A stretch of 64,000 nt of DNA from Candidatus Thorarchaeota archaeon (GTDB taxonomy: Archaea > Asgardarchaeota > Thorarchaeia > Thorarchaeales > Thorarchaeaceae), in NCBI GenBank assembly GCA_003345595.1, contig PRDI01000099.1:1-64000 (forward strand), read 5' to 3'. A program made the translations under genes and the position numbers. The notes below the pieces were generated by a model. It ran no database searches and had not been told where the DNA came from. It saw only the letters and a list, made by a program, of their open reading frames with translations. Each line of letters opens with the position of its first letter. Positions within the stretch are counted from its first letter, which is position 1. Of the stretch, positions 39,871 through 64,000 are shown piece after piece.

Positions 39871-41079
39871 TTGAGCTATGAGCAAGTAACCGTACAGTCC
39901 AATAGTCAGACGTTGAAGCCCACAGTGACAGACCGACTCACAATGGGCTATGTCTACCCACATGCCCCATTGGAGATCATCATGGCACATGGCCTGACTC
40001 CAACTCTGGTCCGCGCTCGACCAGGGATTGCTGGTGCGTTTGAAGCCAGTCTCCAGACGTTTGCCTGTTCCTATACCAGGAATCTGTTCAGTCAGCGCGC
40101 TAACGATCAAATGCCCGCCTCATCAGCACTCCTGTTTCCAGGCAACACGTGCGATTCTCTCCTGAACGTGGGTGATATCTGGCGTGTCCGCTTTCCTGAC
40201 GACATCATATTTCGGCTCACGTATCCTGCAGCGAATCAGGGCGAAGCAGCAGTCCACTATCTTGCAGACGAACTGAGAAGCCTGAGCCAGTCAATAGAAG
40301 CAGCATTTGGTCGCCCTTTCTCTGAGGAGGAATTCAGGGATGCTGCAGGTCTGACTCGGCAGTTTCGCAGTGCAGCCCAGTTCCTTTATGCAGCAAGGGT
40401 CGTAAGCCCTCAGGTACTCCGGTACTCTAAGCTGGCTGCACTGATACATACCTTTCTTCTGTCGCCTGACCAGAAGTCAGCTAACGAGATCACGAATGCG
40501 TCCACACAGGTTCAACGAGCCCTGGCTCGGTCGAGGCTTCTAGATTCTGCAAAGAAGATTCAGGAGCAACTGATCAAAAGGCATCTTACACCAGCGGCCC
40601 TCCCTCACGGTGCCAAGTCACCTCGAATCGCTATTGCAGGCGGCATGATTGATCCCGGTGCCATTGTTGCACTCTTCAACGCTGCGGGTATTCCTGAGGA
40701 TGCACTCGTTATGGATCTTTTCTCGTTCGGCTTCAAGACCGTGTTCACTCCACCCTGTGAAGTGGGACGAGACCCATTCGACAGCGTTGCAAGGTCTATC
40801 CTAGCATCACCCCTAGAACCAACCCAGGAGGGACTAGGAGTGCGTCTAGCTTTTCTGAAGGATGTCGTCACCAATCTGGCCGTCGATGGTCTAATCGTCT
40901 GTGAACAGTCCTTCTGCGACCCCGATGAATTCGAGGCGCCAAGTCTTGAGGCGGAGGCCTCTAAGTCAGGAGTGGCCGTGATGAGGCTCCCCATCGACCC
41001 CGAACTCTCAGACCGGGAGCGGCTGGGAGTTCGCCTTCAGAGCTTCCTCGAAACTATCAGTCCTAGGAGTGGGAGGTGA
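39871..41079 (+). CDS. 2-hydroxyacyl-CoA dehydratase/benzoyl-CoA reductase-like subunit
   Basis: D-component architecture; conserved Cys in FACSYTRNLF, GNTCDS and VCEQSFCDPDEFE; co-located with a second subunit and an activase. Confidence 0.82.
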   Translation: MSYEQVTVQSNSQTLKPTVTDRLTMGYVYPHAPLEIIMAHGLTPTLVRARPGIAGAFEASLQTFACSYTRNLFSQRANDQMPASSALLFPGNTCDSLLNVGDIWRVRFPDDIIFRLTYPAANQGEAAVHYLADELRSLSQSIEAAFGRPFSEEEFRDAAGLTRQFRSAAQFLYAARVVSPQVLRYSKLAALIHTFLLSPDQKSANEITNASTQVQRALARSRLLDSAKKIQEQLIKRHLTPAALPHGAKSPRIAIAGGMIDPGAIVALFNAAGIPEDALVMDLFSFGFKTVFTPPCEVGRDPFDSVARSILASPLEPTQEGLGVRLAFLKDVVTNLAVDGLIVCEQSFCDPDEFEAPSLEAEASKSGVAVMRLPIDPELSDRERLGVRLQSFLETISPRSGR

Positions 41080-42308
41080 CAACATTGGGACAGGAAGAAC
41101 GACATACTGAAGAGAAAGTGTACAGGCAGCTTCGCGCCAATTCACTACTCCAAGAGATCATGTTGCGCTACATGATGGAAGGCCAAGCCGCCAGTGAACA
41201 GGGCAAGCTGGCATGGGTTACGTCTGGCTTCCCCGTAGAGATTCCAGTGACAATGGGCGTCAATGTCAGTTACCCCGAGCAATACGGGGCTATCATCGGC
41301 TCACAGAAGGTTGGTCCGGAGATCTGCGGGTTTGCCGAAGAGTTGGGTTACTCCCAAGAGCTCTGCTCCTATGCCCGGTCTAGCATTGGTTCTGTGCGCT
41401 ATCCTGAGAAGAGCCCGTTGGACGGGCTGCCAAAGCCCCAAGCTCTGCTTGCATGCAACAACATCTGTGGAACAGTCCTTAGGTGGTACGACGCCGTATC
41501 CCAAATGACCGGCGCGCCTGTCTTTCTGTTTGACACTCCTCCCACGGAGGGCGACCAGCCATCACACCACAGGGAATACGTTCGCCAGAGCGTCCTGAGG
41601 CTCATTGATTTTCTTTCTCGTACCTTTCATACGTCCTTCTCAGAAGAACGCTTACGTAAGGTGGGTGAGCTATCAGGCGAAGCGATTGATCTGTGGACTC
41701 GCTCTCTGAAGGCTTGTCGCAATAGACCCAGTCCACTGAACTGCGCTGACAGGTTTCTTGCCATGGCTCCTATCGTAGCATTGCGTGGCACAGAACCGGC
41801 GATTGAGTTCTATCAGGCCCTCCTTGAGGAAGTGCAGGAACGCGTGTCGCAGGGTCTTGGAGCAATCCGAGATGAGAGAATACGTCTGCTGTGGGATGAT
41901 ATTCCTCCTTGGTTCACGATCTTCCGTTTCTTCAATGGCCTTGCAGCGAGAGGTGTCGTCTTCCCTGCAGACACTTACACTCACGCATGGTCCGGATCGC
42001 TCGCTGGTGCAGACCTGCTAGATAGTGTTGTGTCTGTCTATTCCAACGTCTACCTGAACAAGGGTCTCGAGGCCAAGGTCGACAAGATGTGCGAGTTGAT
42101 CAAGGAGTACTCACTCGATGGGTTCATCATGTTCTCAGTCCGTTCCTGCAAACGCTATTCCCTCGGGCAGCTTGTGTCAAAAGAGCTCGTCATGGAAAGG
42201 ACTGGCGTACCGGGAGTCGTGATTGAGGGTGATATGGTGGACAGTCGCCTCTTCAACGACGCACAGATTCAGACAAGGCTTGATGCGCTTCTTGAGATGT
42301 TTCTATAG
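41076..42308 (+). CDS. 2-hydroxyacyl-CoA dehydratase/benzoyl-CoA reductase-like subunit
   Basis: VTSGFPVEIPVTMGVNVSYPEQYGAIIGS, ELCSYARSSIGSV, LLACNNICGTVLRWYD, DGFIMFSVRSCKRYSLGQ; 4-nt overlap with the upstream gene. Confidence 0.88.
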   Translation: MTTLGQEERHTEEKVYRQLRANSLLQEIMLRYMMEGQAASEQGKLAWVTSGFPVEIPVTMGVNVSYPEQYGAIIGSQKVGPEICGFAEELGYSQELCSYARSSIGSVRYPEKSPLDGLPKPQALLACNNICGTVLRWYDAVSQMTGAPVFLFDTPPTEGDQPSHHREYVRQSVLRLIDFLSRTFHTSFSEERLRKVGELSGEAIDLWTRSLKACRNRPSPLNCADRFLAMAPIVALRGTEPAIEFYQALLEEVQERVSQGLGAIRDERIRLLWDDIPPWFTIFRFFNGLAARGVVFPADTYTHAWSGSLAGADLLDSVVSVYSNVYLNKGLEAKVDKMCELIKEYSLDGFIMFSVRSCKRYSLGQLVSKELVMERTGVPGVVIEGDMVDSRLFNDAQIQTRLDALLEMFL

Positions 42309-42320
42309 GGTGGCACTGAG

Positions 42321-43103
42321 TTGGCAAGACGCACAACCATTGGAATAGGTCTCGATATTGGGTCGACAACGACGAAAGGTATACTTGTAGACTCATCAGG
42401 CACTGTGCTCGCGGCCTCGCTCGTGACCACTGGTGCGTCGGCCCCTATCGCCGCAAGACATGTCATGGATGAGCTGTCACAGACATCGGGTAAAGAGCTG
42501 ACAGGCTTGCCTATCATTACCACTGGCTATGGACGGACATCGGTCGAGTTCGCCCATGAAACCGTGACTGAGATAACGTGCCATAGTATGGGTGTTCATT
42601 CACTGAACCCCGACATTCGGCTCCTTATTGACGTGGGTGGCCAAGACTCGAAAGTGATACGGATTGGACCAAACGGGCGTCCAACGGACTTCGAGCTGAA
42701 TGACAAGTGTAGTGCGGGGACCGGCAGGTTTCTAGAAGTAATGGCCAGAGTGCTGGAAGTCTCAATTGACGATTTGGGTCCCCTTGCTCTACGCTCCACT
42801 TCTCCGTCCACAATCAGCAGCACATGCACAGTCTTTGCCGAGAGCGAAGTTGTAGGCAGAATCGGGACTGGTGCCGCGCCAGCCGACATCGCTGCAGGAG
42901 CCCACTTGGCCATGGCAGGGAAGGTTGCCACTTTAGCAAAGAGGGTTGGCTTGGTCACTCCCGTGGGTGTGACTGGCGGCGTGGCTCTAAACCCTGCGTT
43001 TCGCCACTATCTCTCCAAACAGCTGAATAGTTCTCTTTGGATGCCGGACAAGCCCCAGCTGACTGGGGCCCTTGGTGCAGCGATTCTAGCAGTCAAACGA
43101 TAG
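42321..43103 (+). CDS. 2-hydroxyacyl-CoA dehydratase activator (ASKHA ATPase, [4Fe-4S])
   Basis: GLDIGSTTTKGILVD, IDVGGQDSKVIRI, NDKCSAGTGRFLEVMARVL, STCTVFAESEVV, TGGVALNP. Confidence 0.95.
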   Translation: MARRTTIGIGLDIGSTTTKGILVDSSGTVLAASLVTTGASAPIAARHVMDELSQTSGKELTGLPIITTGYGRTSVEFAHETVTEITCHSMGVHSLNPDIRLLIDVGGQDSKVIRIGPNGRPTDFELNDKCSAGTGRFLEVMARVLEVSIDDLGPLALRSTSPSTISSTCTVFAESEVVGRIGTGAAPADIAAGAHLAMAGKVATLAKRVGLVTPVGVTGGVALNPAFRHYLSKQLNSSLWMPDKPQLTGALGAAILAVKR

Positions 43104-43736: not shown

Positions 43737-44585
43737 TCACTTCCTGACCTTTGCGTGCATCTGTTTCAGGACATCAGTATATTCAGGCTTCTCAATATCG
43801 ACGAACTCACCGCAGACTATTCTCCTTGCGTAGTCGAGTTCTGCCTCGTGCGGTGGAAGGCCGTTCTGGATGTCAGTCACCTCTAGGAGGTGTTTGTGCA
43901 TATCGACGCCCTCGCCCAGCCTGTTCATCCTGCCATATGCAGTGGGACACGCGCCGACAATCTCAATGAAAGAGAGCCCCTGCTTCGTGATACCTTTTTC
44001 AATCGACTTTGTGGCACGACGAACCTGAACGGCTGTCCAACGTGCAACGAACGTCGCTCCAGAGGACGCGGCAAGCTTGACCAGATTGAAAGGATGTTCT
44101 ATGTTGCCAATCGGAGCTGGGCTCGTCTGTGTCCACTTCTCGTGCTCAGTAGTGGGTCCAAACTGGCCGCCTGTCATGCCGTAGTTGAAGTTGTTTATGC
44201 AGACAACAGTCATGTCGATGTTTCTCCGGCAGGCATGGATAAGATGGTTTCCACCTATTGCAGCAAGGTCTCCATCGCCTGCAACTACCAGAAGCTCGAG
44301 ATCAGGATTGGCAATCTTAACACCCGTGGCGAATGGGATGGCTCTGCCATGTGTCGTGTGAAATGTGCCTGTCTTGAAGTAGCCCGAAGTACGACCACTG
44401 CATCCAATGCCTGAGACGACGACCACCTTCGAGAAGTCGATGCCCAAGGTGTCGATGGCCCTTGTGATCATGCCTGTCACGATTCCTATCGAACAACCGG
44501 GACAGTAAATCCATGGCATCCGGTCCTCTCTGATGTACTTGGCCATCGGGTGCTTCAGTGTGACCTGCTCTGCTGTCGCAGTCAT
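43737..44585 (-). CDS. korB: 2-oxoacid:ferredoxin oxidoreductase beta subunit
   Basis: YCPGCSIGI, GIGCSGRTSGYF, THGRAIPFATGVKIANPDLELLVVAGDGDLAAIGGNH (TPP-binding). Confidence 0.95.
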   Translation of the reverse strand: MTATAEQVTLKHPMAKYIREDRMPWIYCPGCSIGIVTGMITRAIDTLGIDFSKVVVVSGIGCSGRTSGYFKTGTFHTTHGRAIPFATGVKIANPDLELLVVAGDGDLAAIGGNHLIHACRRNIDMTVVCINNFNYGMTGGQFGPTTEHEKWTQTSPAPIGNIEHPFNLVKLAASSGATFVARWTAVQVRRATKSIEKGITKQGLSFIEIVGACPTAYGRMNRLGEGVDMHKHLLEVTDIQNGLPPHEAELDYARRIVCGEFVDIEKPEYTDVLKQMHAKVRK

Positions 44586-45718
44586 TTAGCATGGACCTCC
44601 ATGATCTTGCGTAGAATTTCGTCAGGTAGTTGAGGTGTCCCGGCAGGTTTTGTCATGAGATGAACAGGTGTAGGCGCTGCAAAAGCCCTGACCATATAGT
44701 AGACCTGCCCCATGTTCTGTTCAGGCACTATGATGTGCTTGACATCTGAGGCGAGCTGTGCGATGGGTTCTTCGGGGAAGGGCCAGACGGTCTTCAATCT
44801 CAACATTCCCGCCTTGATGCCTTTTGCTCTTGCATCCTTAACGGCTCTCCTGGCGCTTCTAGCTGGAGTCCCATAGGCGACGATGGCGATTTCTGCATCG
44901 TCCAAGAAGTATCTCTCTACCTCGGTTATCTCATCGATGTGCCTGAGTATCTTCTCGTTTAGTCGAGTCACGAGCTCAATCTGGACCTCGTCACTATCAG
45001 TAGGATATCCACGCTCATCGTGTGTAAGACCTGTGGCATAGAACTGGTACTTTGTACCGAGCAAGGCCATTGGCGGCACAAGATCATCATCAGGCTTGAA
45101 GGGGAGATACTCGGAGGGTTCGCTCTTGGGCATCTTCCTGCTTACAAGCTTCAAACTCTTCTCATCAGGTATCACTAGTGCTTCTCTCATGTGTCCGACT
45201 ATCTCATCGGCCAGCAGGAACACAGGAACTCTGTATTTCTCTGATAGATTGAAAGCCCTGACAGTGAGGTCAAACATCTCTTGGACGGATGCCGGTGTCA
45301 GTGCGATTATCTGATAGTCACCATGGCTGCCCCACTTTGCCTGCAGCACATCACCCTGCTGCCCACGTGTGGGTTGACCAGTACTCGGGCCGCCACGCAT
45401 TATGTTAACGATCACGATCGGAGTTTCCGTCATGACGGCAAGACCCACAGCCTCCATCATCAGGCTTGCACCCGGACCCGAGGTCGCGGTCATGGCCTTA
45501 ATCCCCGCCCATGAGGCCCCAATCACACTCGTTATGGAAGCGATTTCGTCCTCATACTGAACATATGCTCCGCTCAGCTCAGGCATCCTGACGGCCATCC
45601 ACTCAGCTATCTCTGTCGCAGGAGTGATCGGATAGCCACCGAAGTATCTGCACCCGGCGCTCAGAGCCCCTTCAGCACAAGCGATATCACCCATTGTGAA
45701 CATGGTTCGTTCGGGCAT
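44582..45718 (-). CDS. korA: 2-oxoacid:ferredoxin oxidoreductase alpha subunit
   Basis: GDIACAEGALSAGCRYFGGYPITPATEIAEWM, QYEDEIASITSVIGASWAGIKAMTATSGPG. Confidence 0.95.
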   Translation of the reverse strand: MPERTMFTMGDIACAEGALSAGCRYFGGYPITPATEIAEWMAVRMPELSGAYVQYEDEIASITSVIGASWAGIKAMTATSGPGASLMMEAVGLAVMTETPIVIVNIMRGGPSTGQPTRGQQGDVLQAKWGSHGDYQIIALTPASVQEMFDLTVRAFNLSEKYRVPVFLLADEIVGHMREALVIPDEKSLKLVSRKMPKSEPSEYLPFKPDDDLVPPMALLGTKYQFYATGLTHDERGYPTDSDEVQIELVTRLNEKILRHIDEITEVERYFLDDAEIAIVAYGTPARSARRAVKDARAKGIKAGMLRLKTVWPFPEEPIAQLASDVKHIIVPEQNMGQVYYMVRAFAAPTPVHLMTKPAGTPQLPDEILRKIMEVHAK

Positions 45719-46069
45719 TCAGTGGGCCTCCTCCTTCTCGTCCTTCTTTTGATACTCAGGGACAATCGTGCCCTCCTCCACTGTTCCTGCTTCAAGCGCC
45801 GCCTCCGCCACCTTCCTATCAACCAGAAAGATGGCCATATCGGGACAAATCAGTTCACAAAACTCGCAATTCACGCAGGCGTCAATATCACAGGCAGTGA
45901 CTGGATGGTATCCCTTGCGGTTGTACTTATCCTCTGTCAAGCACAGGACGTGCTTGGGACAGAATTCCACACACAGACTGCATGCCTTGCACTGTTCCTG
46001 CAGGATGACGAGGACTTTCTCTCTAGTCCTCGGGGGTTTGGGTGTGATCGGCTTGCGAACAGTTGTCAT
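45719..46069 (-). CDS. korD: 2-oxoacid:ferredoxin oxidoreductase delta (ferredoxin) subunit
   Basis: [16 protein letters not shown] and [16 protein letters not shown]. Confidence 0.93.
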
Positions 46070-47780: not shown

Positions 47781-48671
47781 TTAAAGAAATCTGTCAACAA
47801 GTGCATCTGTGCTGATGACATGTTTGTGAAGGCCAAGTTCCTCGGGATCTATCCCCATTGCCAGACCAAGCAGCTGCGTGTAGTAGAACACAGGAAGATG
47901 ATACCTGTCGCCAATCTCCTTGTTTAGCTGAGGTTGAGACATCTCGAACTGGAGGTGGCAGAACGAACAGACATCTACTATGCACTCCGCCCCTGCCTCA
48001 ATCATGTTGTCAAGCTTCTCACGTGCAATGTCTATGCTGACGGGCACATTTGACCCGCGGACTCCACCACCAGCGCCACAGCAGAGGAACTTCTCCTTGT
48101 ACTTCACACTCTCTGCACCCGTGACTTCGACAAGCTCATCAAGGAACGTGTATTTCTGAGTCTGCTTCCAAGGCCTGAGCTTGGTCGGCTTCAAGAGGTG
48201 ACACCCATAGTGTGTTCCGACCCTCAGCCCGTTCAGAGGGCGGGTCACCTTCTTGCGCAGGTTCTCCAACCCGAGGTTGTAGATGATCTCGACGAGGTGC
48301 TTTGCATCAGCCTTTGCCTCATACTTCACACCAACACTCTTGAGGATCCGCTGGACCTCCTTGAGCCTCTCGGGGTTCTCATGGACCACGTGGAGGGCCT
48401 CTTTGAATGTCCCATAGCAGCCATTGCAGCCTGTGAGTATGTCATGGCCTGCTGCTTCTGCGAGTGCGAGGTTCCGTGAGGCGAGGGCAAGCCATGTGGG
48501 CTCACTGAATGACCTGATCACCCCGGGGGCAGGACAGCAGCTCGCGCCCTGCAAGTCCTCTATGTCAATCCCAAGTTTCGGGAGCACAACCCTGATGCTC
48601 TTCTCCACATTGGGAAACCGGTTGGGCATGACGCATCCCAAGAAGAATGAATAGGTCTGAGCTTGCGTCAT
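47781..48671 (-). CDS. hdrB: Heterodisulfide reductase subunit B-like (HdrB-1)
   Basis: Two CCG domains: FFLGC...ASCCPAPG...GCNGC and YGCH...FLCCGAGGG...CSFCH. Confidence 0.93.
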   Translation of the reverse strand: MTQAQTYSFFLGCVMPNRFPNVEKSIRVVLPKLGIDIEDLQGASCCPAPGVIRSFSEPTWLALASRNLALAEAAGHDILTGCNGCYGTFKEALHVVHENPERLKEVQRILKSVGVKYEAKADAKHLVEIIYNLGLENLRKKVTRPLNGLRVGTHYGCHLLKPTKLRPWKQTQKYTFLDELVEVTGAESVKYKEKFLCCGAGGGVRGSNVPVSIDIAREKLDNMIEAGAECIVDVCSFCHLQFEMSQPQLNKEIGDRYHLPVFYYTQLLGLAMGIDPEELGLHKHVISTDALVDRFL

Positions 48672-48673
48672 CT

Positions 48674-49255
48674 CTAGTTAGCCCCTGCTCCCTCTCCCTC
48701 GACTAGAGCGTTGAACCCTGTCTGCCTCATTATCTCCTTGACCTGAGCGAGTGCCTGTTCGCTGGAGTGCGTTGTAGGAGGTATCTCGACGATGCCAAGT
48801 TCTCTCCGCATCTCTTGGTTTGCATCGTCTAGTGGGACTGCATGACCCGTCTGGAGCAGCTTCTGAGCCGACTTACGATGCTGTGGCAGCATGAACCCTT
48901 CCTTGACAGCCATGTTCCGCATTATGATGATTGCGTCTGTGACCTTGATCTGTCTTGGACACCTTTCGAGGCAAGTTAGGCATGTGGCACAAAGCCAAAG
49001 GTCGGGCGAACTCAGCACGTCCTCTTTGAGACCGAGCAGAGCCTTCCGCATGAGTTCACGTGTCCTGAATGCGGTTCGACGTCCGCTAGGGCAGACACTA
49101 GAACAAGTCCCGCATTGGATGCAGGTGCGTATTCTGTCTGCACCTGCTGCGACAATCTTGTCTACGAAGGTAGGGTCTATGTCTGCGCTCCGAATGGTTT
49201 CACGGCTGATGTCGCCCATTAGTATGTCCTTCGATGCAGTGGTGCTGTCAGGCAT
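48674..49255 (-). CDS. hdrC: Heterodisulfide reductase subunit C-like (HdrC-1)
   Basis: CIQCGTCSSVCP and CATCLTCLERCP; adjacent to HdrB-1. Confidence 0.92.
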   Translation of the reverse strand: MPDSTTASKDILMGDISRETIRSADIDPTFVDKIVAAGADRIRTCIQCGTCSSVCPSGRRTAFRTRELMRKALLGLKEDVLSSPDLWLCATCLTCLERCPRQIKVTDAIIIMRNMAVKEGFMLPQHRKSAQKLLQTGHAVPLDDANQEMRRELGIVEIPPTTHSSEQALAQVKEIMRQTGFNALVEGEGAGAN

Positions 49256-51315: not shown

Positions 51316-51903
51316 TTGCCTAGGTGGACAGACTTGACCGTGGCCGAAGAGAAACCTCCAGTCGACGTAGACACAGTGGACTTGGATTTCATCCAGATGA
51401 TCAAGAAGACAGGAGGGCCAAACATTCAGAGCTGTTATCAGTGCGGTACTTGCTCAGGATCGTGCCCCGCGGGTGCTCGCACAAACTATCTCGTCAGGGG
51501 AATCATCAGAAAGGCACTCCTCGGCCTGAAGAAGGAAGTCATCTCAGCTCCGGAACTCTGGTACTGCACCACATGCTACATGTGTACTGATAGATGCCCA
51601 CAGGACGTGAAGCCGACAGATGTCATCAAGGCGATTCGCAACGTTGCGGTCGAAGAGGGATATATGCTGAAACCCCACCAGGACGTTGCGAAGAAAGTCC
51701 TAGAGGCTGGACACGCGGTACCGCTCGACAAGGACACCTGGTCTGCTCTCAGGCAGAAGTCGGGTCTCGAGCCTCTGCCCCCCAACGGTTCGTCGAATCC
51801 AAAGGTGGCTGAAGAGATACGCAAGATGGCCAAGAAGAGTGGATTTGACAAGCTCATTGGATATAGCGATACACCTCCGCCGGCAGAGAAGAAGGAGAAG
51901 TGA
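51316..51903 (+). CDS. hdrC: Heterodisulfide reductase subunit C-like (HdrC-2)
   Basis: CYQCGTCSGSCPAG and CTTCYMCTDRCP. Confidence 0.92.
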   Translation: MPRWTDLTVAEEKPPVDVDTVDLDFIQMIKKTGGPNIQSCYQCGTCSGSCPAGARTNYLVRGIIRKALLGLKKEVISAPELWYCTTCYMCTDRCPQDVKPTDVIKAIRNVAVEEGYMLKPHQDVAKKVLEAGHAVPLDKDTWSALRQKSGLEPLPPNGSSNPKVAEEIRKMAKKSGFDKLIGYSDTPPPAEKKEK

Positions 51904-52838
51904 ACAACTTGTCGAAGAGGCCTGCGTACTATCATTTCTTGGGCTGCATCATTCCTCACCGGTATCCGAGCATCGAGAAAGCTGCCAAGTTGGTCTTCAA
52001 TGACCTCGGGATCGACTTGCTAGACATGGTGGGTGCTAGTTGCTGTCCTGCCCCCGGAGTCTTTGGTTCATTCGACAGGGTGATGTGGGCCACAATCGCG
52101 GCGCGCAATCTCACCATCGCAGAACAAGGCGGTCACCCACTTACCACAGGCTGCAACGGTTGTTTTGCCAGTCTCTGGGACGCGAATCACGAGCTGAAGG
52201 AAGACGAAGAACTTAGAGCGGCTGTCAACCGCAATCTGGCCGAGATTGGACGAGAGTTCAAAGGCACGACAGAAGTCACCCACTACATCGATGTTCTCTA
52301 CGGTGTTGCGGGTATGCAGAAGCTGAAGGAGCATGTCACACATCCATTCACTGGAGTGAGAATGGCACTTCACCCAGGGTGTCACTGGATGCGTCCAGCG
52401 TTGGTCAAGAAGAAGGACAATAGCGAGCGTCCTCACATATTCAGGGAGATCTGCGAGGCCACAGGAGCAAAATACGTTCACTACAAGGATGAGCTGATGT
52501 GCTGCGGAGCTGGTGGTGCAGTCCGCACAGCAGACGTCAAGATTGCGCTTGAATTCACAAAGCAAAAGTTCGACAGTATCCTCGCAGCCGGTGGTGCCGA
52601 TGTGATTGTGACTCCCTGCCCCTTCTGCCTCCTTCAACTGGACATGGGTCAAGTGGAGATTCAGAAGATCTTCGGGGTTGAGTACAAGTTCGACGTGATG
52701 CATGTTGCCGAGTTGCTCGCGTTGGCATTTGGGCATCAGCCAGAGGAGTTTGGGCTTGCGAGCCATCTACAGTACGCCCAGAGGAAGACCGAGCCAAACT
52801 GGCAGCGACTGAAACTGAGGGCCAAGGCAACCGCATAG
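51900..52838 (+). CDS. hdrB: Heterodisulfide reductase subunit B-like (HdrB-2)
   Basis: FLGC...ASCCPAPG...GCNGC and PGCH...LMCCGAGGA...CPFC; 4-nt overlap with HdrC-2. Confidence 0.93.
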   Translation: MNNLSKRPAYYHFLGCIIPHRYPSIEKAAKLVFNDLGIDLLDMVGASCCPAPGVFGSFDRVMWATIAARNLTIAEQGGHPLTTGCNGCFASLWDANHELKEDEELRAAVNRNLAEIGREFKGTTEVTHYIDVLYGVAGMQKLKEHVTHPFTGVRMALHPGCHWMRPALVKKKDNSERPHIFREICEATGAKYVHYKDELMCCGAGGAVRTADVKIALEFTKQKFDSILAAGGADVIVTPCPFCLLQLDMGQVEIQKIFGVEYKFDVMHVAELLALAFGHQPEEFGLASHLQYAQRKTEPNWQRLKLRAKATA

Positions 52839-53859: not shown

Positions 53860-56800
53860 ATGATGGCAGAGGCCTCAGTAAAACCCGTCGTTATCATAGG
53901 CGCTGGGATCGCAGGCATTCGCGCAGCCCTCGATCTCGCAGGCATGGGCGTCAAGGTGTACATGGTTGAGAAGCAACCATCTATCGGCGGGCACATGGCA
54001 CAGCTCGACAAGACATTCCCCACACTGGACTGCTCCATGTGTATCATGGGTCCGTGGATGGTCGACTGTTCCCGACACCCGAACATCACAATCATGGCCT
54101 ACTCGGAGGTTGTTGGCGTATCAGGGGAGCGAGGGGACTTCAAGGTGAAGGTCTTGAAGCACACTCGCCGTGTAGACCCCAGCAAGTGTACTGGCTGTGG
54201 TGAATGTCAACGCGTATGTCCCATCGAAGTTCCCAACGAGTATGACCTTGGCCTGAAGATGCGAAAGGCCGCCTACATTCCATTTCCTCAGGCAGTGCCC
54301 AATATCGCGACGATCGACATTGAGAACTGCATCCAGTGCATGACCTGCGTGAATACCTGCAAGGCCCAAGCCATCAACTTTGAGATTTCTGATGAAACCG
54401 TTGAGATCAACGCAGGCGCTCTGATCGTCGCCACTGGCTATGCGTTACTAGATGCTTCAACCGTGCCAGAGTACGGCTACGGCCGGTTTCCTAACGTTGT
54501 CACGAGCCTTGAGTATGAGCGGATGGTTTCCGCAAGTGGGCCCACTGGAGGAGTCTTGGTGCGTCCTTCTGACGGTCGGGAGCCTCATCACATCGCCTTC
54601 ATACAGTGTGTCGGCTCACGCGATGTGAATCACTGTGCTTACTGTTCTAGGATCTGCTGCACTTATGCCACAAAAGAGGCCATCATCACAAAGGAGCACA
54701 CGCCAGACGTGCACATTGACATATTGTACAATGACCTCCGCGTCTTTGGCAAGGGGTTCGAGGAATTTCTGGTCCGGGGCGAGAAGGAGTATGGGATTAC
54801 ATACGTCAAAGGCCTACCGAGCGAGATATCCGAGGACTATGAAACACACGACTTGTCCATTCGACACAGTGACACCAAGGGGCGGGAGGTACTGCAAGAC
54901 AAGTATGACTTAGTGGTCCTTTGTCCTGCAATGGTGCCCAACGAGAATGGCGCCCTCTTCAAGAAGCTCGGCATTCAAGTCGACAACTACGGCTACGTAC
55001 AGGGTCTCAGCGAGCAGATTGACAGCGTCCAATCAGGCGTGCCCGGAATCAGCATCTGTGGGACCGTGAACAGGCCAAAAGATATTCCTGATTCTGTGAC
55101 GCAAGGCAGCGCAGCTGCTGCACTTGCTGCACTCGACGTGGTCATACCTAAAGCCGCCGAAACAGAAGTCCTGACAGAGAAAGACCTCGATCTCATGACT
55201 GCGGAGCCGCGGATTGGCGTGTTCATCTGTTCCTGCGGTATCAACATCGCTGGGACCGTGGATGTTGCGGAAGTCACCCGATATGCGGGTACTCTGCCAA
55301 ACGTTGTTCACTCTCAAAATCTGCTATACTCATGCTCATCTGATGCTCAAGTCGTCATCAAGGACGCCATCAAACAGCACAAGCTCAACCGAGTAGTAGT
55401 CGCGTCCTGCACTCCAAGAACCCATGAGCCCCTCTTCAGAGCGACAATCGAGCAGGCAGGGCTCAACAAATATCTCTTCGAGATGGCCAACATCCGAGAG
55501 CATTGTTCATGGATTCACCAGTCCGTCAAGGATGAGGCCACCTCCAAGGCGATGGACCTCGTGCGAATGGCAGTTGCGAAGTCAAGGCTGCTAGAACCTC
55601 AGGAAGAGGCGGTAACGAAGGTAGAGCCCGCAGCCCTTGTCATCGGTGCAGGGGTAGCCGGCATGTCTGCTGCGGAGCTGATTGCAGGGAAGGGCTTCAA
55701 GGTCTATTTGGTCGAGAAGGAGAAGCGGGTCGGAGGACTCCTGAAGGATCTACGTACTGTGAGCTTCGATTTCAAGCCCGCTGCAGAAGTCATTGGAGAA
55801 CATGAGTCCTCGATCAAGAACGCGCCAGGCATTGAGCTGATGCTTGGCTCTGAGGTGACAGAAGCAAAGGGCTCGATTGGTGACTTTGAGGTCACCGTCA
55901 CAACGGGAAAGAAGCAGAAGCAGCTGAAGGTCGGAGTGGTCGTCGTAGCAACCGGGGCTGTTCAGCTTGACGAGAAAGGCCTCTATGGTCTTCACAAGAT
56001 TCCCGACGTGATGACGGAGCTTGAGTTCAACCAATGGCTCGGGCAAGAGGAAGCGATGCAGGACGACCAGACCTTTGCAGTCATCCACTGTGCAGGATCG
56101 CGGGAGGATGAGTCGCTCGAAGGTGCCCGGACATGGTGCTCTGCTGTTTGCTGTACTGTTGCTCTCGAACATACACTCGAGCTGCTTGAGAAGCACCCCG
56201 GCTCACGGGTGTTCCACATATACAGAGACCTCAGGGTTTCCTATGCAGGTGAGGACAAGTATCGCGAAGCCCGGAAGAAGGGTGTTGTCTTCATCAGGTT
56301 TGACAAGGACTCTCCGCCAGAGGTGAAGAAGGGGAAGAACAAAGCACTCAGGGTCGAGGTCACTGACCAGATACTCGGGGCCAAGCTTCTGCTAGATGTA
56401 GATCACGTGATTCTGGCCACTGCCATGGTCCCCCGCGAAACAAACAAGCAGGTTTCAGAGCTGTTCAAGGTGCCACTGAACATGTCCGGCTTCTTCATGG
56501 AGGCCCACCCCAAGCTGAGGCCTGTAGACTTCCAGACTGACGGTATTTACGTCGCTGGCACTGCCACTGCCCCGAAGTCAATCGACGAGGCAATCTCTCA
56601 AGGCAGGGGCGCTGCTGCGAGAGCCCTTGTGCCCTTGGTCAGCGGGATAAGAAAGGCTGAGGCTATAGTCTCTGTCGTGGACCCCGAAGTATGTGTTGGA
56701 TGCGGGACTTGCGAGATCAACTGCGCCTACAACGCGATTGAGGTGGTCCCGGGTGAGGGCGGACACGATTATGCGGTTTCGAATCCTGTTTTGTGCCAAG

Positions 56801-57315
56801 GGTGCGGCCGTTGCGCAGCGGGGTGCCCAAGTTCCGCTATCACAATGAAGCACTTTACCGATGACCAGATACTCGCCCAGATACGCGCCGCTCTTCAGGA
56901 TGTGCCTGCCAACCAGTCACGCATACTCACAATTGTCTGCAACTGGTGCAGTTATGCAGGAGCTGACAACGCAGGAGTATCGAGACTGCAGCAGCCGACC
57001 AACGTGCGCGACATCCGTGTGATGTGCACAGGGCGTATCAGTGTGACACACATTCTCGAAGCATTCAGGCTAGGGGCTGACATGGTCTGGATATCAGGTT
57101 GCCACATCGGTGACTGCCACTACGTGGACGGCAATATCGCATTTGAGAGACGGTTCGCCATTGCCAAGAAGATCATTGAGAAGGCTGGGCTTGAAACCGA
57201 GCGCCTGCAGTTTACTCATATCAGTGCGAGTGAGGGCTCAATCTGGGCTGAAACTGTCAGAAAGCTGTCTGAGCTTGCTGACAGACTAGGTCCTAGTCCT
57301 CTCAGGCAAAGGTAA
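53860..57315 (+). CDS. hdrA: HdrA-HdrA-MvhD fusion (double HdrA)
   Basis: First FAD module VVIIGAGIAGIRAALDLAGMGVKVYMVEKQPSIGGHMAQLDKTFPTLDCSMCI; second module ICSCGINIAGTVDVAEV...ALVIGAGVAGMSAAELIAGKG; 2x[4Fe-4S] CVGCGTCEINC/CQGCGRCAAGCP; MvhD VCNWCSYAGADNAG...GCHIGDCHY. Confidence 0.95.
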   Translation: MMAEASVKPVVIIGAGIAGIRAALDLAGMGVKVYMVEKQPSIGGHMAQLDKTFPTLDCSMCIMGPWMVDCSRHPNITIMAYSEVVGVSGERGDFKVKVLKHTRRVDPSKCTGCGECQRVCPIEVPNEYDLGLKMRKAAYIPFPQAVPNIATIDIENCIQCMTCVNTCKAQAINFEISDETVEINAGALIVATGYALLDASTVPEYGYGRFPNVVTSLEYERMVSASGPTGGVLVRPSDGREPHHIAFIQCVGSRDVNHCAYCSRICCTYATKEAIITKEHTPDVHIDILYNDLRVFGKGFEEFLVRGEKEYGITYVKGLPSEISEDYETHDLSIRHSDTKGREVLQDKYDLVVLCPAMVPNENGALFKKLGIQVDNYGYVQGLSEQIDSVQSGVPGISICGTVNRPKDIPDSVTQGSAAAALAALDVVIPKAAETEVLTEKDLDLMTAEPRIGVFICSCGINIAGTVDVAEVTRYAGTLPNVVHSQNLLYSCSSDAQVVIKDAIKQHKLNRVVVASCTPRTHEPLFRATIEQAGLNKYLFEMANIREHCSWIHQSVKDEATSKAMDLVRMAVAKSRLLEPQEEAVTKVEPAALVIGAGVAGMSAAELIAGKGFKVYLVEKEKRVGGLLKDLRTVSFDFKPAAEVIGEHESSIKNAPGIELMLGSEVTEAKGSIGDFEVTVTTGKKQKQLKVGVVVVATGAVQLDEKGLYGLHKIPDVMTELEFNQWLGQEEAMQDDQTFAVIHCAGSREDESLEGARTWCSAVCCTVALEHTLELLEKHPGSRVFHIYRDLRVSYAGEDKYREARKKGVVFIRFDKDSPPEVKKGKNKALRVEVTDQILGAKLLLDVDHVILATAMVPRETNKQVSELFKVPLNMSGFFMEAHPKLRPVDFQTDGIYVAGTATAPKSIDEAISQGRGAAARALVPLVSGIRKAEAIVSVVDPEVCVGCGTCEINCAYNAIEVVPGEGGHDYAVSNPVLCQGCGRCAAGCPSSAITMKHFTDDQILAQIRAALQDVPANQSRILTIVCNWCSYAGADNAGVSRLQQPTNVRDIRVMCTGRISVTHILEAFRLGADMVWISGCHIGDCHYVDGNIAFERRFAIAKKIIEKAGLETERLQFTHISASEGSIWAETVRKLSELADRLGPSPLRQR

Positions 57316-57428: not shown

Positions 57429-58034
57429 TTAGGGCATGCTACCAAGAAACGAACCCAGAATCAGTAGCCCGATAATGACTAGAAGAAAGAATATGATGCA
57501 GATGCAGGATCCACAGCCACCGCGTCCTTTGAAGAATATCCTGTCAACAACGACCGCAGACGCGACGGCATGTAGCCAGTCCATGTAGTCCCCTACTGAA
57601 ACACGGAACTGGTCCCTGACCGCCAGTATCTTCTTGTCAAGCCGGAAGGCGAATGCACCCACACTGTTGTTTGCCTCAAAACCCCATGCCAACAGTCCGC
57701 CTTGGGCTTTCAACACGTCGTCACGATAGAAGATCTTGAAGTTCTTGCGGAGAGCAATCCATGGCCGCGTGAGCTTCGCGATCGTCTTTCCCTCGCGATC
57801 CTTGAGCCAGAAGGTCTTGTCAAAGAAGCCTCCCTTTGCAGTGAGAATCTTATTGCCTTGAGCATCCTCGAAATTAACTGTTGACCTGAAGATGCTGAAC
57901 CAAGTTTGCCTTGCAATCGCGATCTTCTCACCTGTCTGTTCATCATATATCTCGAATACAGGTCGCGCCGCTATAATCTTCTGAACGACCTTGAAGTTAC
58001 GGTGCCCACCTGGTGTGCTTTTGCCTACTTCCAC
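57429..58034 (-). CDS. LURP-one/phospholipid-scramblase-like protein with C-terminal Cys-rich TM tail
   Basis: FEIYDEQTGEKIAIARQTWFSIFRSTVNFEDAQGNKILTAKGGFFDKTFWLKDREGKTIAKL; tail GGCGSCICIIFFLLVIIGLLILGSFLG. Confidence 0.75.
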   Translation of the reverse strand: MEVGKSTPGGHRNFKVVQKIIAARPVFEIYDEQTGEKIAIARQTWFSIFRSTVNFEDAQGNKILTAKGGFFDKTFWLKDREGKTIAKLTRPWIALRKNFKIFYRDDVLKAQGGLLAWGFEANNSVGAFAFRLDKKILAVRDQFRVSVGDYMDWLHAVASAVVVDRIFFKGRGGCGSCICIIFFLLVIIGLLILGSFLGSMP

Positions 58035-58203
58035 TGATGATACCTCTCTTGTTGTCGCGCCTTACTATGCTATTAAACAATAGTCGTTTCTCTAGGTCCG
58101 AACCAAGCCCAGCGAGGTGTCTGCCCATCCCGGCGCGGCCAAGACACTACTGATATAAGAGGGCGGTTTTCCGTCGGCTCCGTCATTGCTCCGAGGTGGA
58201 ATC

Positions 58204-58725
58204 ATGGCGACTGAGACCTGGGGCCAGCTCAAATCCCTTGAAGGCAGCAAGCTCGAAATCCTTGACGCTGAGTTCACCAGAGAGGTGTCAAAGATTATCG
58301 GAGGTCAGGACCTCACTGCATGCTTCCAATGTGCGAAGTGCAGTGGTGGATGCCCCGTTTCTGACAAAGTGAATGTGCAGGTACATCAACTGATGAGGAT
58401 GCTTCTCTTCGGTCTTGAAGAAGTCCTCAAGACAGACATGGTCTGGCTATGCACAACTTGTTACCAGTGCCAACAGAGATGTCCTCAAGGTATCAACATC
58501 ACTGACATAATCTTCGGTCTCAAGAATATGGCCTTTCGTAAGGGCATTAACCCACCCGGCTATGTTGCATCACGGAAAGCACTGTACGACTCGGGCAAGC
58601 TCTATGAACCGACTGACTGGGAGCGAGATGACCTTGGTCTGGGTCCGGTCCCGCCTTTGGATGTCGCCGAGACAAGGAAGGTCTTAGACAAGACTGGGCT
58701 GATGAAACTCCGGGAGGGCGAGTGA
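58204..58725 (+). CDS. hdrC: Heterodisulfide reductase subunit C-like (HdrC-3)
   Basis: CFQCAKCSGGCPVS and CTTCYQCQQRCPQG; ATG 58204 preferred over 58186. Confidence 0.92.
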   Translation: MATETWGQLKSLEGSKLEILDAEFTREVSKIIGGQDLTACFQCAKCSGGCPVSDKVNVQVHQLMRMLLFGLEEVLKTDMVWLCTTCYQCQQRCPQGINITDIIFGLKNMAFRKGINPPGYVASRKALYDSGKLYEPTDWERDDLGLGPVPPLDVAETRKVLDKTGLMKLREGE

Positions 58726-58744: not shown

Positions 58745-59602
58745 GTGTTCCTCGGGTGCGCGATTCCCAATCGTTTCAATAACTATGAGGCATCAATGAG
58801 GGCGGTCGCGAAGGAGCTGGAAGTCGAGCTTCTGGACTTTGAGGGCGCATCATGTTGTGGGACGGTAGTTCTGAAGTCCATCGATGAACCTAGCTGGCTG
58901 GCCCTGTCGGGGAGGAACATCGCACTTGCGGAGAAGCGCGGACACGACATAGTCACCCCCTGCAATGGCTGCTTTGGATCGCTCAAGGATACTGCTCACA
59001 TCTTGAACCATGATGAGGCTGTGCGGAAGACGACTAACAAGACGCTGATGGCACTCGGGCTCAAGTTCACAGGCAGGGCCAAGATACGACACTTTGTCGA
59101 GGTTCTGTACGACATGAGAAACGAGATCAAGGGCAGAATCGTGAAACCACTCACTGGACTCAGAATTGCGTTTCACCCGGGATGCCATCTTCTACGACCC
59201 TCGACAGTTGCTGGTTTCGACGACCCTGAGCTTCCTCACAAAGTCGATGAGCTTCTGGAGCTGACTGGTGCGAGGAGCATACCTTGGGGGCTCAAGTTGA
59301 GATGCTGCGGTTCGCCTCTGCTCATTGCCAGCGAAGCCGTTGCTTCAAGCGTGCTGAAGGAGAAGATGATATCAGCGAGAGAGGCCGGCGCTAGTTGTGT
59401 CGTCACCAATTGCCCTGCATGTCACACACAGTTTGACGTTCAGGTCCTCGGACTGAAGGATGAGGGCGGTCAGCCACTTGAATTGCCCGCGCTGTTCGTG
59501 ACCCAAGTTCTTGGTCTGGCCATGGGTCTGGAGCCCGACAGCTTGGGCCTTCAACTGAATAGGGTTTCACTTGACCCAATTCGTGATGTGCTTGGTATCT
59601 AG
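58745..59602 (+). CDS. hdrB: Heterodisulfide reductase subunit B-like (HdrB-3); 5' end ambiguous
   Basis: FLGC...ASCCGTVV...PCNGC and PGCH...LRCCGSP...CPACH; homologous sequence TTQTYEV extends 5' of the only in-frame start. Confidence 0.9.
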   Translation: MFLGCAIPNRFNNYEASMRAVAKELEVELLDFEGASCCGTVVLKSIDEPSWLALSGRNIALAEKRGHDIVTPCNGCFGSLKDTAHILNHDEAVRKTTNKTLMALGLKFTGRAKIRHFVEVLYDMRNEIKGRIVKPLTGLRIAFHPGCHLLRPSTVAGFDDPELPHKVDELLELTGARSIPWGLKLRCCGSPLLIASEAVASSVLKEKMISAREAGASCVVTNCPACHTQFDVQVLGLKDEGGQPLELPALFVTQVLGLAMGLEPDSLGLQLNRVSLDPIRDVLGI

Positions 59603-62509: not shown

Positions 62510-64000
62510 CTATTCCTTGAGCATTGCCTCTATCTCTTCCATGTAGCTCTTCTCACGCCACCAACGCAAATCACGAGCACCTGTCGGGCAGATTGCAGCA
62601 CATGCACCGCAACCCTTGCACCTCATTTCATCGGTCACGCTCTTCTTGACCCCCGGCGAAACCTCCATCATGGTGATTGCGTCGTAGGGGCAAATCTCAG
62701 AGAAGTGACAAAGATCACAGCCGACACATAGATCCTGATCTACTTCTGCGGTGAGCAGTTCAATCTCGACCTTGCCTAGATTGAGCGGGATGCAGGTTTC
62801 ACTAGCCGCGGCACGACCCTGATTGATCGAGTCTGCCACGTTCTTCGCATATGTTGTACCCAAGAACACACCCGGTACTGTGGTTTCAACAGGTCGGAAC
62901 TTCATGTGCATCTCACGCAGGAACCCATCCTGTCCCCTGTTGATGCCCATGGCCTTCACGAGGTCAGCCACATCATGCGGAGCTTCAAGGCCCACTGCAA
63001 GCACAACCATATCTGACCTGATCTTGAATGCCTGCTGCGACAGAGTGTCATAGACTGTAACTATCGCCTCATCTGCGTCTGGCGCCTTCTCTACGGTGAC
63101 GGGCCTCTCACGGACCCATCGAAGATACGTGACGCCCTCCTGCCTGTTCTCACGCCACATCTCCTCCATTCCAGTTTCATAGGGCCGGATGTGCTCCTTG
63201 AAGGCTGAGAATACTCTGATGCTTGGAAACATCTCCTTGAGCTCATGCTGCATGGCCACAATCGCAGAACAACAGACTCTGGAGCAGTATCTGTTGCCCT
63301 CACCCGGATTCTGTCTTGAACCCACACAGTGTATGAAGATGGGGTTCTTGGGCGGTGTCTTGACCTCATCATTCCTGAGCTTCTTCTCAAGGTCTAGCGT
63401 GGTCATGACCCCCGGCACCTCACCCCACCCGTACTCGCCCTTCTTGGGCTGATAGGTGTCAGTGCCAACAGGCATGAGAATCGAGCCGACCTTGTACGTT
63501 GTTCGTTCCTTGGTCGCGACGTTCTCGACTGCCACATCGTAGTTCCCATACGCCCCTTCAAGCCCCATGGGTCTTGAGTTCAGAACAACCTTGATTCTCT
63601 TCTCTTTGCCCACGCGAGCCGTCAAATCGTCCACAATGTCCTTCGCAGACTCCATCTTCGGAAACAGTCGATGCAGTTCGTTAAGTCTTCCACCAAGGCG
63701 TTCAGACTTCTCAACTAGAATGACATCGAAGCCCCGTCTGGTGATATCCAGTGCCGCCGTCATCCCAGACACTCCGCCACCGACGACCATCGCGGTTCTG
63801 ACCACGTCGATGGACTTCATTGGGATGACTTCATTGTTGATTGCCTTTGCCACGGCGCTACGGATCATGTCCTGAGCTTTCTCTTGGCGTTCCTCAGCGG
63901 TCGCTCTGGCGTTCACAAGAGAGAGTTGTTCCCTCAGACCCACAGGACCGACGAAGTAGTATCTTGAGAGACCTGCTCTCTCCAGTACACCTCTGAAAGT
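62510..64000 (-). CDS. HdrA-like FAD/Fe-S protein, truncated by the window edge
   Basis: GGGVSGMTAALDITRRGFDVILVEKSERLGG, CVGCDLCHFSEICP and CKGCGACAAICP; the frame stays open to 64000 (TFRGVLERAGLSRYYFVGP upstream of the listed GTG start). Confidence 0.9.
   Translation of the reverse strand, partial: TFRGVLERAGLSRYYFVGPVGLREQLSLVNARATAEERQEKAQDMIRSAVAKAINNEVIPMKSIDVVRTAMVVGGGVSGMTAALDITRRGFDVILVEKSERLGGRLNELHRLFPKMESAKDIVDDLTARVGKEKRIKVVLNSRPMGLEGAYGNYDVAVENVATKERTTYKVGSILMPVGTDTYQPKKGEYGWGEVPGVMTTLDLEKKLRNDEVKTPPKNPIFIHCVGSRQNPGEGNRYCSRVCCSAIVAMQHELKEMFPSIRVFSAFKEHIRPYETGMEEMWRENRQEGVTYLRWVRERPVTVEKAPDADEAIVTVYDTLSQQAFKIRSDMVVLAVGLEAPHDVADLVKAMGINRGQDGFLREMHMKFRPVETTVPGVFLGTTYAKNVADSINQGRAAASETCIPLNLGKVEIELLTAEVDQDLCVGCDLCHFSEICPYDAITMMEVSPGVKKSVTDEMRCKGCGACAAICPTGARDLRWWREKSYMEEIEAMLKE

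Follow-up and report, generated by a model that had tools for sequence, protein, structure and literature searches.

A fused HdrA–HdrA–MvhD protein of Thorarchaeia with the electron-bifurcation signature at the first but not the second flavin site

The fused gene and its neighbourhood

The window, a 64,000-nt stretch of a metagenome-assembled genome (MAG; 2.73 Mb in 129 contigs, 83% complete) of Candidatus Thorarchaeota, contains an intact open reading frame (53860–57315, + strand, ATG start) with a product of 1151 aa. Profile and PDB searches placed an FAD/thioredoxin-reductase domain at aa ~8–425, an HdrA N-terminal domain at ~449–585, a second FAD domain at ~589–925, two [4Fe-4S] clusters at ~935–1000 (domain 935–1012) and MvhD/FlpD at 1022–1144, giving the order HdrA (FAD + inserted ferredoxin) – HdrA (N-terminal domain + FAD + C-terminal ferredoxin) – MvhD. 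The two HdrA modules are referred to as half 1 and half 2. The tandem HdrA–HdrA–MvhD layout proposed by the first-pass annotation, including its 2x[4Fe-4S] plus MvhD end, was thereby confirmed. Cys194, Cys197, E356 and K409 are numbered as in the reference for ligand mapping, Methanothermococcus thermolithotrophicus HdrA (5odc_A, its sequence assembled from the PDB-match alignment). The features of the locus are as follows:

53860–57315, + strand: fused HdrA–HdrA–MvhD (ORF; Pfam/NCBIfam; PDB sequence matches to HdrA and MvhD; orthologs)
53881–55134, + strand: half 1 FAD/thioredoxin-reductase core, aa 8–425 (PDB match, 5odc_A mapping)
54022–54042, + strand: TLDC58SMC61, the Cys194/Cys197 equivalents (5odc_A mapping; role of Cys197 published)
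54166–54372, + strand: inserted ferredoxin, aa 103–171, eight Cys at 110–167, putative low-potential exit path (Pfam, 5odc_A mapping)
54607–54660, + strand: half 1 thioredoxin-reductase-domain cluster, C250/C262/C266/C267 (5odc_A mapping; invariant in a 38-row alignment)
55204–55614, + strand: HdrA N-terminal domain, aa 449–585 (PDB match, 5odc_A mapping)
55624–56634, + strand: half 2 FAD/thioredoxin-reductase core, aa 589–925 (5odc_A mapping, alignment of relatives)
56029–56031, + strand: N724, replacing E356 in half 2 (ortholog comparison, 5odc_A mapping)
56167–56169, + strand: E770, replacing K409 in half 2, a charge reversal (ortholog comparison, 5odc_A mapping)
56662–56895, + strand: C-terminal 2x[4Fe-4S] ferredoxin domain, aa 935–1012 (Pfam, 5odc_A mapping)
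56917–57309, + strand: MvhD/FlpD domain, aa 1020–1150 (PF02662, 1e-42, match at aa 1022–1144)
47781–48671, − strand: HdrB3 (PF02754, conserved)
48674–49255, − strand: HdrC3 (profile match, conserved)
51316–51903, + strand: HdrC1 (TIGR03290 above cut-off, conserved position)
51900–52838, + strand: HdrB1 (TIGR03288 above cut-off, conserved position)
58186–58725, + strand: HdrC2, conserved downstream partner (NCBIfam, conserved position)
58745–59602, + strand: HdrB2, two CCG domains, conserved downstream partner (Pfam/NCBIfam, conserved position)
62510–64000 in the window, ending at 65656 of contig C99, − strand: HdrAA2, a second fused HdrA–HdrA without MvhD, 1048 aa (ORF, conserved)

The protein starts with a Rossmann motif and the open frame extends only ~20 codons further upstream; therefore no N-terminal domain is concealed upstream of half 1. 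Full-length orthologs (73–86% identity) occur in most of the same-family genomes searched, the nearest named match being Candidatus Thorarchaeota archaeon C14-20 (77% identity over aa 2–1151), followed by relatives from other Asgard lineages. Split versions of these genes are known, one of them in the same genome, as might be expected had assembly or gene calling fused two adjacent genes, but such an artefact of assembly or frame is refuted by these unbroken orthologs, which come from independent genomes and share the same fusion points, and it can be given practically no credence.

In the loci examined, the conserved cluster comprises KorAB/ferredoxin, HdrB3–HdrC3, HdrC1–HdrB1, HdrAA–MvhD, HdrC2–HdrB2, a DUF2096 gene and HdrAA2. 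HdrB1 and HdrB2 each match HdrB along almost the whole sequence and retain two CCG domains, and the HdrC–HdrB pairs are predicted partners of the fused protein. HdrC2 begins no more than a few bases from the fused gene in most relatives; here a 201-aa gene (57429–58034, − strand), with a LURP-one-like match below the Pfam cut-off, separates the two, and it was not detected at the locus of a same-genus relative (L041). No electron donor gene was found beside the fused HdrA at this locus, and no RNA or tRNA features were found within the window. Pyrrolysine at an in-frame TAG in HdrAA2 (C99:62510–65572) was ruled out, because no stop interrupts the 1048-aa ORF, which places the counted TAG outside it. 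Near the Hdr cluster (39871–43103, + strand) lie two 2-hydroxyglutaryl-CoA dehydratase D-component/benzoyl-CoA-reductase-like genes and a BadF/BcrA-type ATPase, a candidate low-potential electron user. Genes for the alpha and beta subunits of a 2-oxoacid:ferredoxin oxidoreductase, with a small ferredoxin-like ORF (43737–46069, − strand), stand beside the Hdr cluster in several relatives.

Complementary ligand sets of the two halves

Mapped on 5odc_A (51% identity for half 1, 42% for half 2), half 1 holds C58/C61, equivalent to C194/C197, the eight cysteines of the inserted ferredoxin, and E220 (= E356) and K272 (= K409), and lacks both the N-terminal domain and the C-terminal ferredoxin. Half 2, in turn, carries the four cysteines of the N-terminal-domain cluster (457, 459, 492 and 517), its own thioredoxin-reductase-domain cluster (C744, C760, C764 and C765), the FAD motifs and a C-terminal ferredoxin with eight Cys at aa 945–989, and lacks the inserted ferredoxin and C194/C197, with P640/E643 instead. 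Taken together, the halves add up to exactly one HdrA complement of Fe-S ligands; the FAD and the thioredoxin-reductase-domain cluster next to it are the sole elements present twice. For the rest, each half lacks what the other has: Cys197 without an N-terminal domain in half 1, the reverse in half 2. The first-pass annotation had described part of this division, with a cluster motif and ferredoxin insert in the first module and, in the second, an N-terminal HdrA domain and FAD motif without the equivalent Cys. Its quoted motif (...MVDC) holds for C58 and C61, the latter being Cys197, but C70 has no cysteine counterpart in the reference. The claimed inequality of the FAD sites stands for the other ligands and for two flavin-tuning residues, and had to be narrowed on alignment of both halves, as the FAD motifs and the thioredoxin-reductase-domain cluster cysteines are kept in both.

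In canonical HdrA, each subunit contributes Cys197 as the bridging ligand that completes its partner's N-terminal-domain cluster (PMC9012536). The missing Cys of half 2 is this known complementarity, half 1 lending Cys197 to the half 2 N-terminal-domain cluster, and not degeneration as such. Across 38 diverse fused proteins, the FAD-motif glycines and the four thioredoxin-reductase-domain cysteines of half 2 are invariant, which rules out a pseudogene-like remnant; the invariant cluster shows that the surroundings of the second flavin (FAD-2) are not simply decaying.

The same division recurs in adjacent separate genes, where all A genes (8/8) lack the N-terminal domain and carry Cys197 and the inserted ferredoxin and all B genes (12/12) have the N-terminal domain and lack the other two. 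One such pair lies in the same genome on contig C125 (locus L020), where an HdrA without the N-terminal domain overlaps one with it by 4 bases, followed by mvhD and further genes including a match to a [NiFe] hydrogenase large subunit. Upstream of this pair and hydrogenase, a 922-aa HdrA with a long insert (L020, 6534–9302) resembles the published type III HdrA with a GltD/NfnB insert. The trees, built from quick searches, set off all half-2 domains together with 5/6 split B genes by a branch (SH-aLRT 98) and group all half-1 domains with 5/6 split A genes (SH-aLRT 97), standard HdrA adjoining half 1, so the two halves come from two distinct HdrA lineages. The split pairs support a heteromeric logic that fusion has merely fixed in one chain. 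Two HdrA proteins with both an N-terminal domain and an inserted ferredoxin and without Cys197 (L026, 2053–4101; L039, 10887–12842) fall outside the simple A/B division.

When the whole chain was modelled with AlphaFold2 (mean pLDDT 84, pTM 0.86), the model's best PDB matches were HdrA chains (5odc_A, TM 0.79 by target length); PDB sequence and structure searches found no solved structure of a fused HdrA. We infer that the halves pair within one chain, in which case Cys61 of half 1 would be lent to the cluster of the N-terminal domain of its own half 2. Pairing in trans between two chains could also occur. In such a domain-swapped homodimer, Cys61 would complete the N-terminal-domain cluster of another chain and each dimer would hold two bifurcation units, an arrangement in keeping with the split gene pairs, which imply the same pairing between separate products, and with canonical HdrABC complexes, which are dimers (PMC12350162). 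We consider it unlikely, given that one chain already has a complete complementary ligand set and that a single confident whole-chain arrangement is predicted, though a single-chain prediction is itself compatible with swapping.

Signature residues and the bifurcating site

Published work distinguishes bifurcating HdrA by the residues E356 and K409 (PMC12054007, PMC9430772). The alignment of K409 is safe because the position lies five residues past the CC pair, ungapped, in both halves; that of E356 was anchored on the preceding V-x-T-x-L/E-x motif. Site 1 has both residues (E220, K272) and site 2 neither (N724, E770). Among fused proteins, K409 of half 1 is conserved throughout (113/113), with no change on the tree, and E356 of half 1 in 99/113, the 14 exceptions all being D in Thorarchaeia HdrAA2, while parsimony requires at least nine changes on the tree for each of the two residues in half 2. 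In the Thorarchaeia orthologs of this protein (20 distinct sequences), both residues are invariant in half 1 and both are lost from half 2 in every one (E to N/S/G; K to E/T/G, with K to E in 17/20), and mean pairwise identity is 71% for the FAD-2 core compared to 78% for the FAD-1 core. These 20 sequences amount to one or a few events because of their shared history, and the general argument is borne by independent losses elsewhere. As to which site bifurcates, left open by the first-pass annotation, conservation points to half 1 and suggests that, of the two flavin sites, only the first may be able to split electrons.

Both residues are kept in half 2 in 59/80 of the fused proteins from outside the Thorarchaeia, and E356 and K409 occur in 75% of type II sequences, for which two events have been proposed (Lyu 2025, PMC12054007); both signatures are also reported in Moorella HdrA and in the Geobacter benzoyl-CoA reductase HdrA homologue (PMC9430772). 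Bifurcation at both FAD sites, with two coupled events per polypeptide as suggested for type II HdrA generally, is nonetheless very improbable for the protein described here, whose half 2 lacks Cys197 and the inserted ferredoxin and has lost E and K, mostly with the K to E reversal, as in all of its Thorarchaeia orthologs.

An electron-transfer flavoprotein complex that does not bifurcate, passing electrons between MvhD, ferredoxin and HdrBC, is also improbable, if to a lesser degree. Such HdrA complexes exist, and the Sporomusa ovata relative, with one signature site, gave no ferredoxin/NAD(P)+ co-reduction in published assays (PMC9430772). Neither McrA nor an McrA N-terminal domain was found in the genome, which is 83% complete, and heterodisulfide is therefore no obvious acceptor. 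Against this reading, E356 and K409 of half 1 are unchanged in every ortholog, and the inserted ferredoxin and the HdrBC partners are kept.

In the published system, the mobile arm consists of the N- and C-terminal HdrA domains and the MvhD homologue and acts on FAD' of HdrA' (PMC12350162). All of these donor-arm domains lie in half 2 of the fused protein and the entire receiving core lies in half 1. The protein is thus probably a single-chain asymmetric HdrA pseudo-dimer (type II HdrA + MvhD) that stands in for one half of the symmetric dimer, with bifurcation confined to FAD-1. Half 2 would act as the donor arm (N-terminal domain, C-terminal ferredoxin and MvhD) with a supporting FAD domain, and half 1 as the receiving core, with the bifurcating FAD, the adjacent cluster leading towards HdrC/HdrB, the inserted ferredoxin as exit and Cys197. 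FAD-2 is probably structural or a one-way relay, because its bifurcation residues are lost and it has neither an arm nor an exit of its own; with no arm or exit serving it, we infer, FAD-2 would have been free to lose the signature residues.

A more specific extension seems doubtful as it stands: the Thorarchaeia protein may be an obligately one-sided bifurcase, its FAD-2 (K to E) converted into a relay that does not bifurcate and feeds a second HdrBC arm, within an asymmetric multi-arm electron-routing complex that combines three HdrCB pairs and the second fused HdrA and serves non-methanogenic acceptors. HdrAA2 itself (62510–64000, − strand, and L040, 6511–9657; 14 Thorarchaeia sequences) is one-sided in a way that differs from the HdrAA–MvhD pattern, with E356 changed to D and K kept in half 1, and E kept and K changed to A/T in half 2.

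Known relatives and distribution

With two FAD/thioredoxin-reductase domains in one polypeptide (Pfam, 5odc_A alignment) and a C-terminal MvhD fused to the double HdrA (PF02662), the architecture has been described before, as type II HdrA of class A3+MVH (Lyu 2025, PMC12054007), with which it shares two thioredoxin-reductase domains, two HdrA lineages (half 1 resembling A6 and half 2 A12) and eight domains including the fused MvhD. The members described there are from methane/alkane archaea and mostly have E356/K409 in both halves, whereas the Thorarchaeia half 2 has neither. A 2024 fusion/fission survey (PMC11237513, cluster 77) includes a Thorarchaeota duplicated HdrA + MvhD of the same lineage and domain sum, listed there as a fusion, to which the ligand, residue and neighbourhood analysis is added here. 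The ANME HdrA3/HdrA4 fusions and HdrA5/6 and HdrA12/13 pairs (Chadwick 2022, PMC9012536) likewise divide Cys197 and the N-terminal domain between partners by complementary loss, and a self-heterodimer was proposed for them; in HdrA3/4, for which MvhD fusion is not mentioned, that paper gives the N-terminal-domain half first, whereas here and in the relatives collected the Cys197 half does.

The HdrA of the Sporomusa ovata MetVF-HdrBCA-MvhD complex (PMC9430772) likewise has two thioredoxin-reductase-like domains with E/K in one (E160/K216), so a one-sided signature is already known; likened by description only, it differs in having MvhD as a separate gene and MetVF as a partner. The canonical HdrA of MvhADG-HdrABC (5ODC) and of Elp-Hdr (PMC12350162) agrees in that the cofactor ligands are all mappable and the arm acts in trans, but forms a symmetric homodimer with two complete units, compared to one unit in one chain here. 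A literature search of incomplete coverage found no earlier report of either the clade-wide E/K loss from half 2 in Thorarchaeia or the cluster with three HdrCB pairs.

Novelty of the architecture, as implied by the first-pass annotation, was thus ruled out by these descriptions (PMC9012536, PMC12054007, PMC11237513) and by its occurrence in many lineages. A scan of one genome per species gave at least 583 candidates, and the 79 best loci included bacteria (among them Desulfobacterota, Chloroflexota, Bacillota, Planctomycetota and Armatimonadota) and archaea (among them ANME, Methanosarcina, Archaeoglobi, Thermoplasmata, Bathyarchaeota and Asgard lineages). The fused set was gathered by similarity to this protein and then restricted to one domain order, [FAD-inserted Fd][NTD-FAD-C-term Fd]. 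It comprises 124 ORFs from many phyla, in some cases the same gene counted more than once from overlapping loci, and in all of them the Cys197 half comes first, as the filter prescribes. MvhD is fused in 36/124, all in Asgard genomes in this sample, with two state changes on the tree by parsimony.

Fused HdrA proteins are common in anaerobes, and the Thorarchaeia clade offers a natural experiment: because one flavin site has kept the bifurcation signature and the other has lost it, the question of whether type II HdrA performs one or two bifurcations becomes directly testable. The division of arm domains in one half and receiving core in the other also provides a rule for reading split and fused HdrA genes. 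In many further relatives an in-frame TGA shortens the ORF; of 25 relatives with shortened ORFs examined, 24, from several phyla, have the TGA exactly at the half 1 Cys197 position (TNDCSMU; loci include L098, L116, L106, L073, L118 and L127). The bridging ligand Cys197 of half 1 is likely a selenocysteine site in these TGA-bearing relatives, consistent with the HdrA selenoprotein already known (PMC11227280, PMC2702500).
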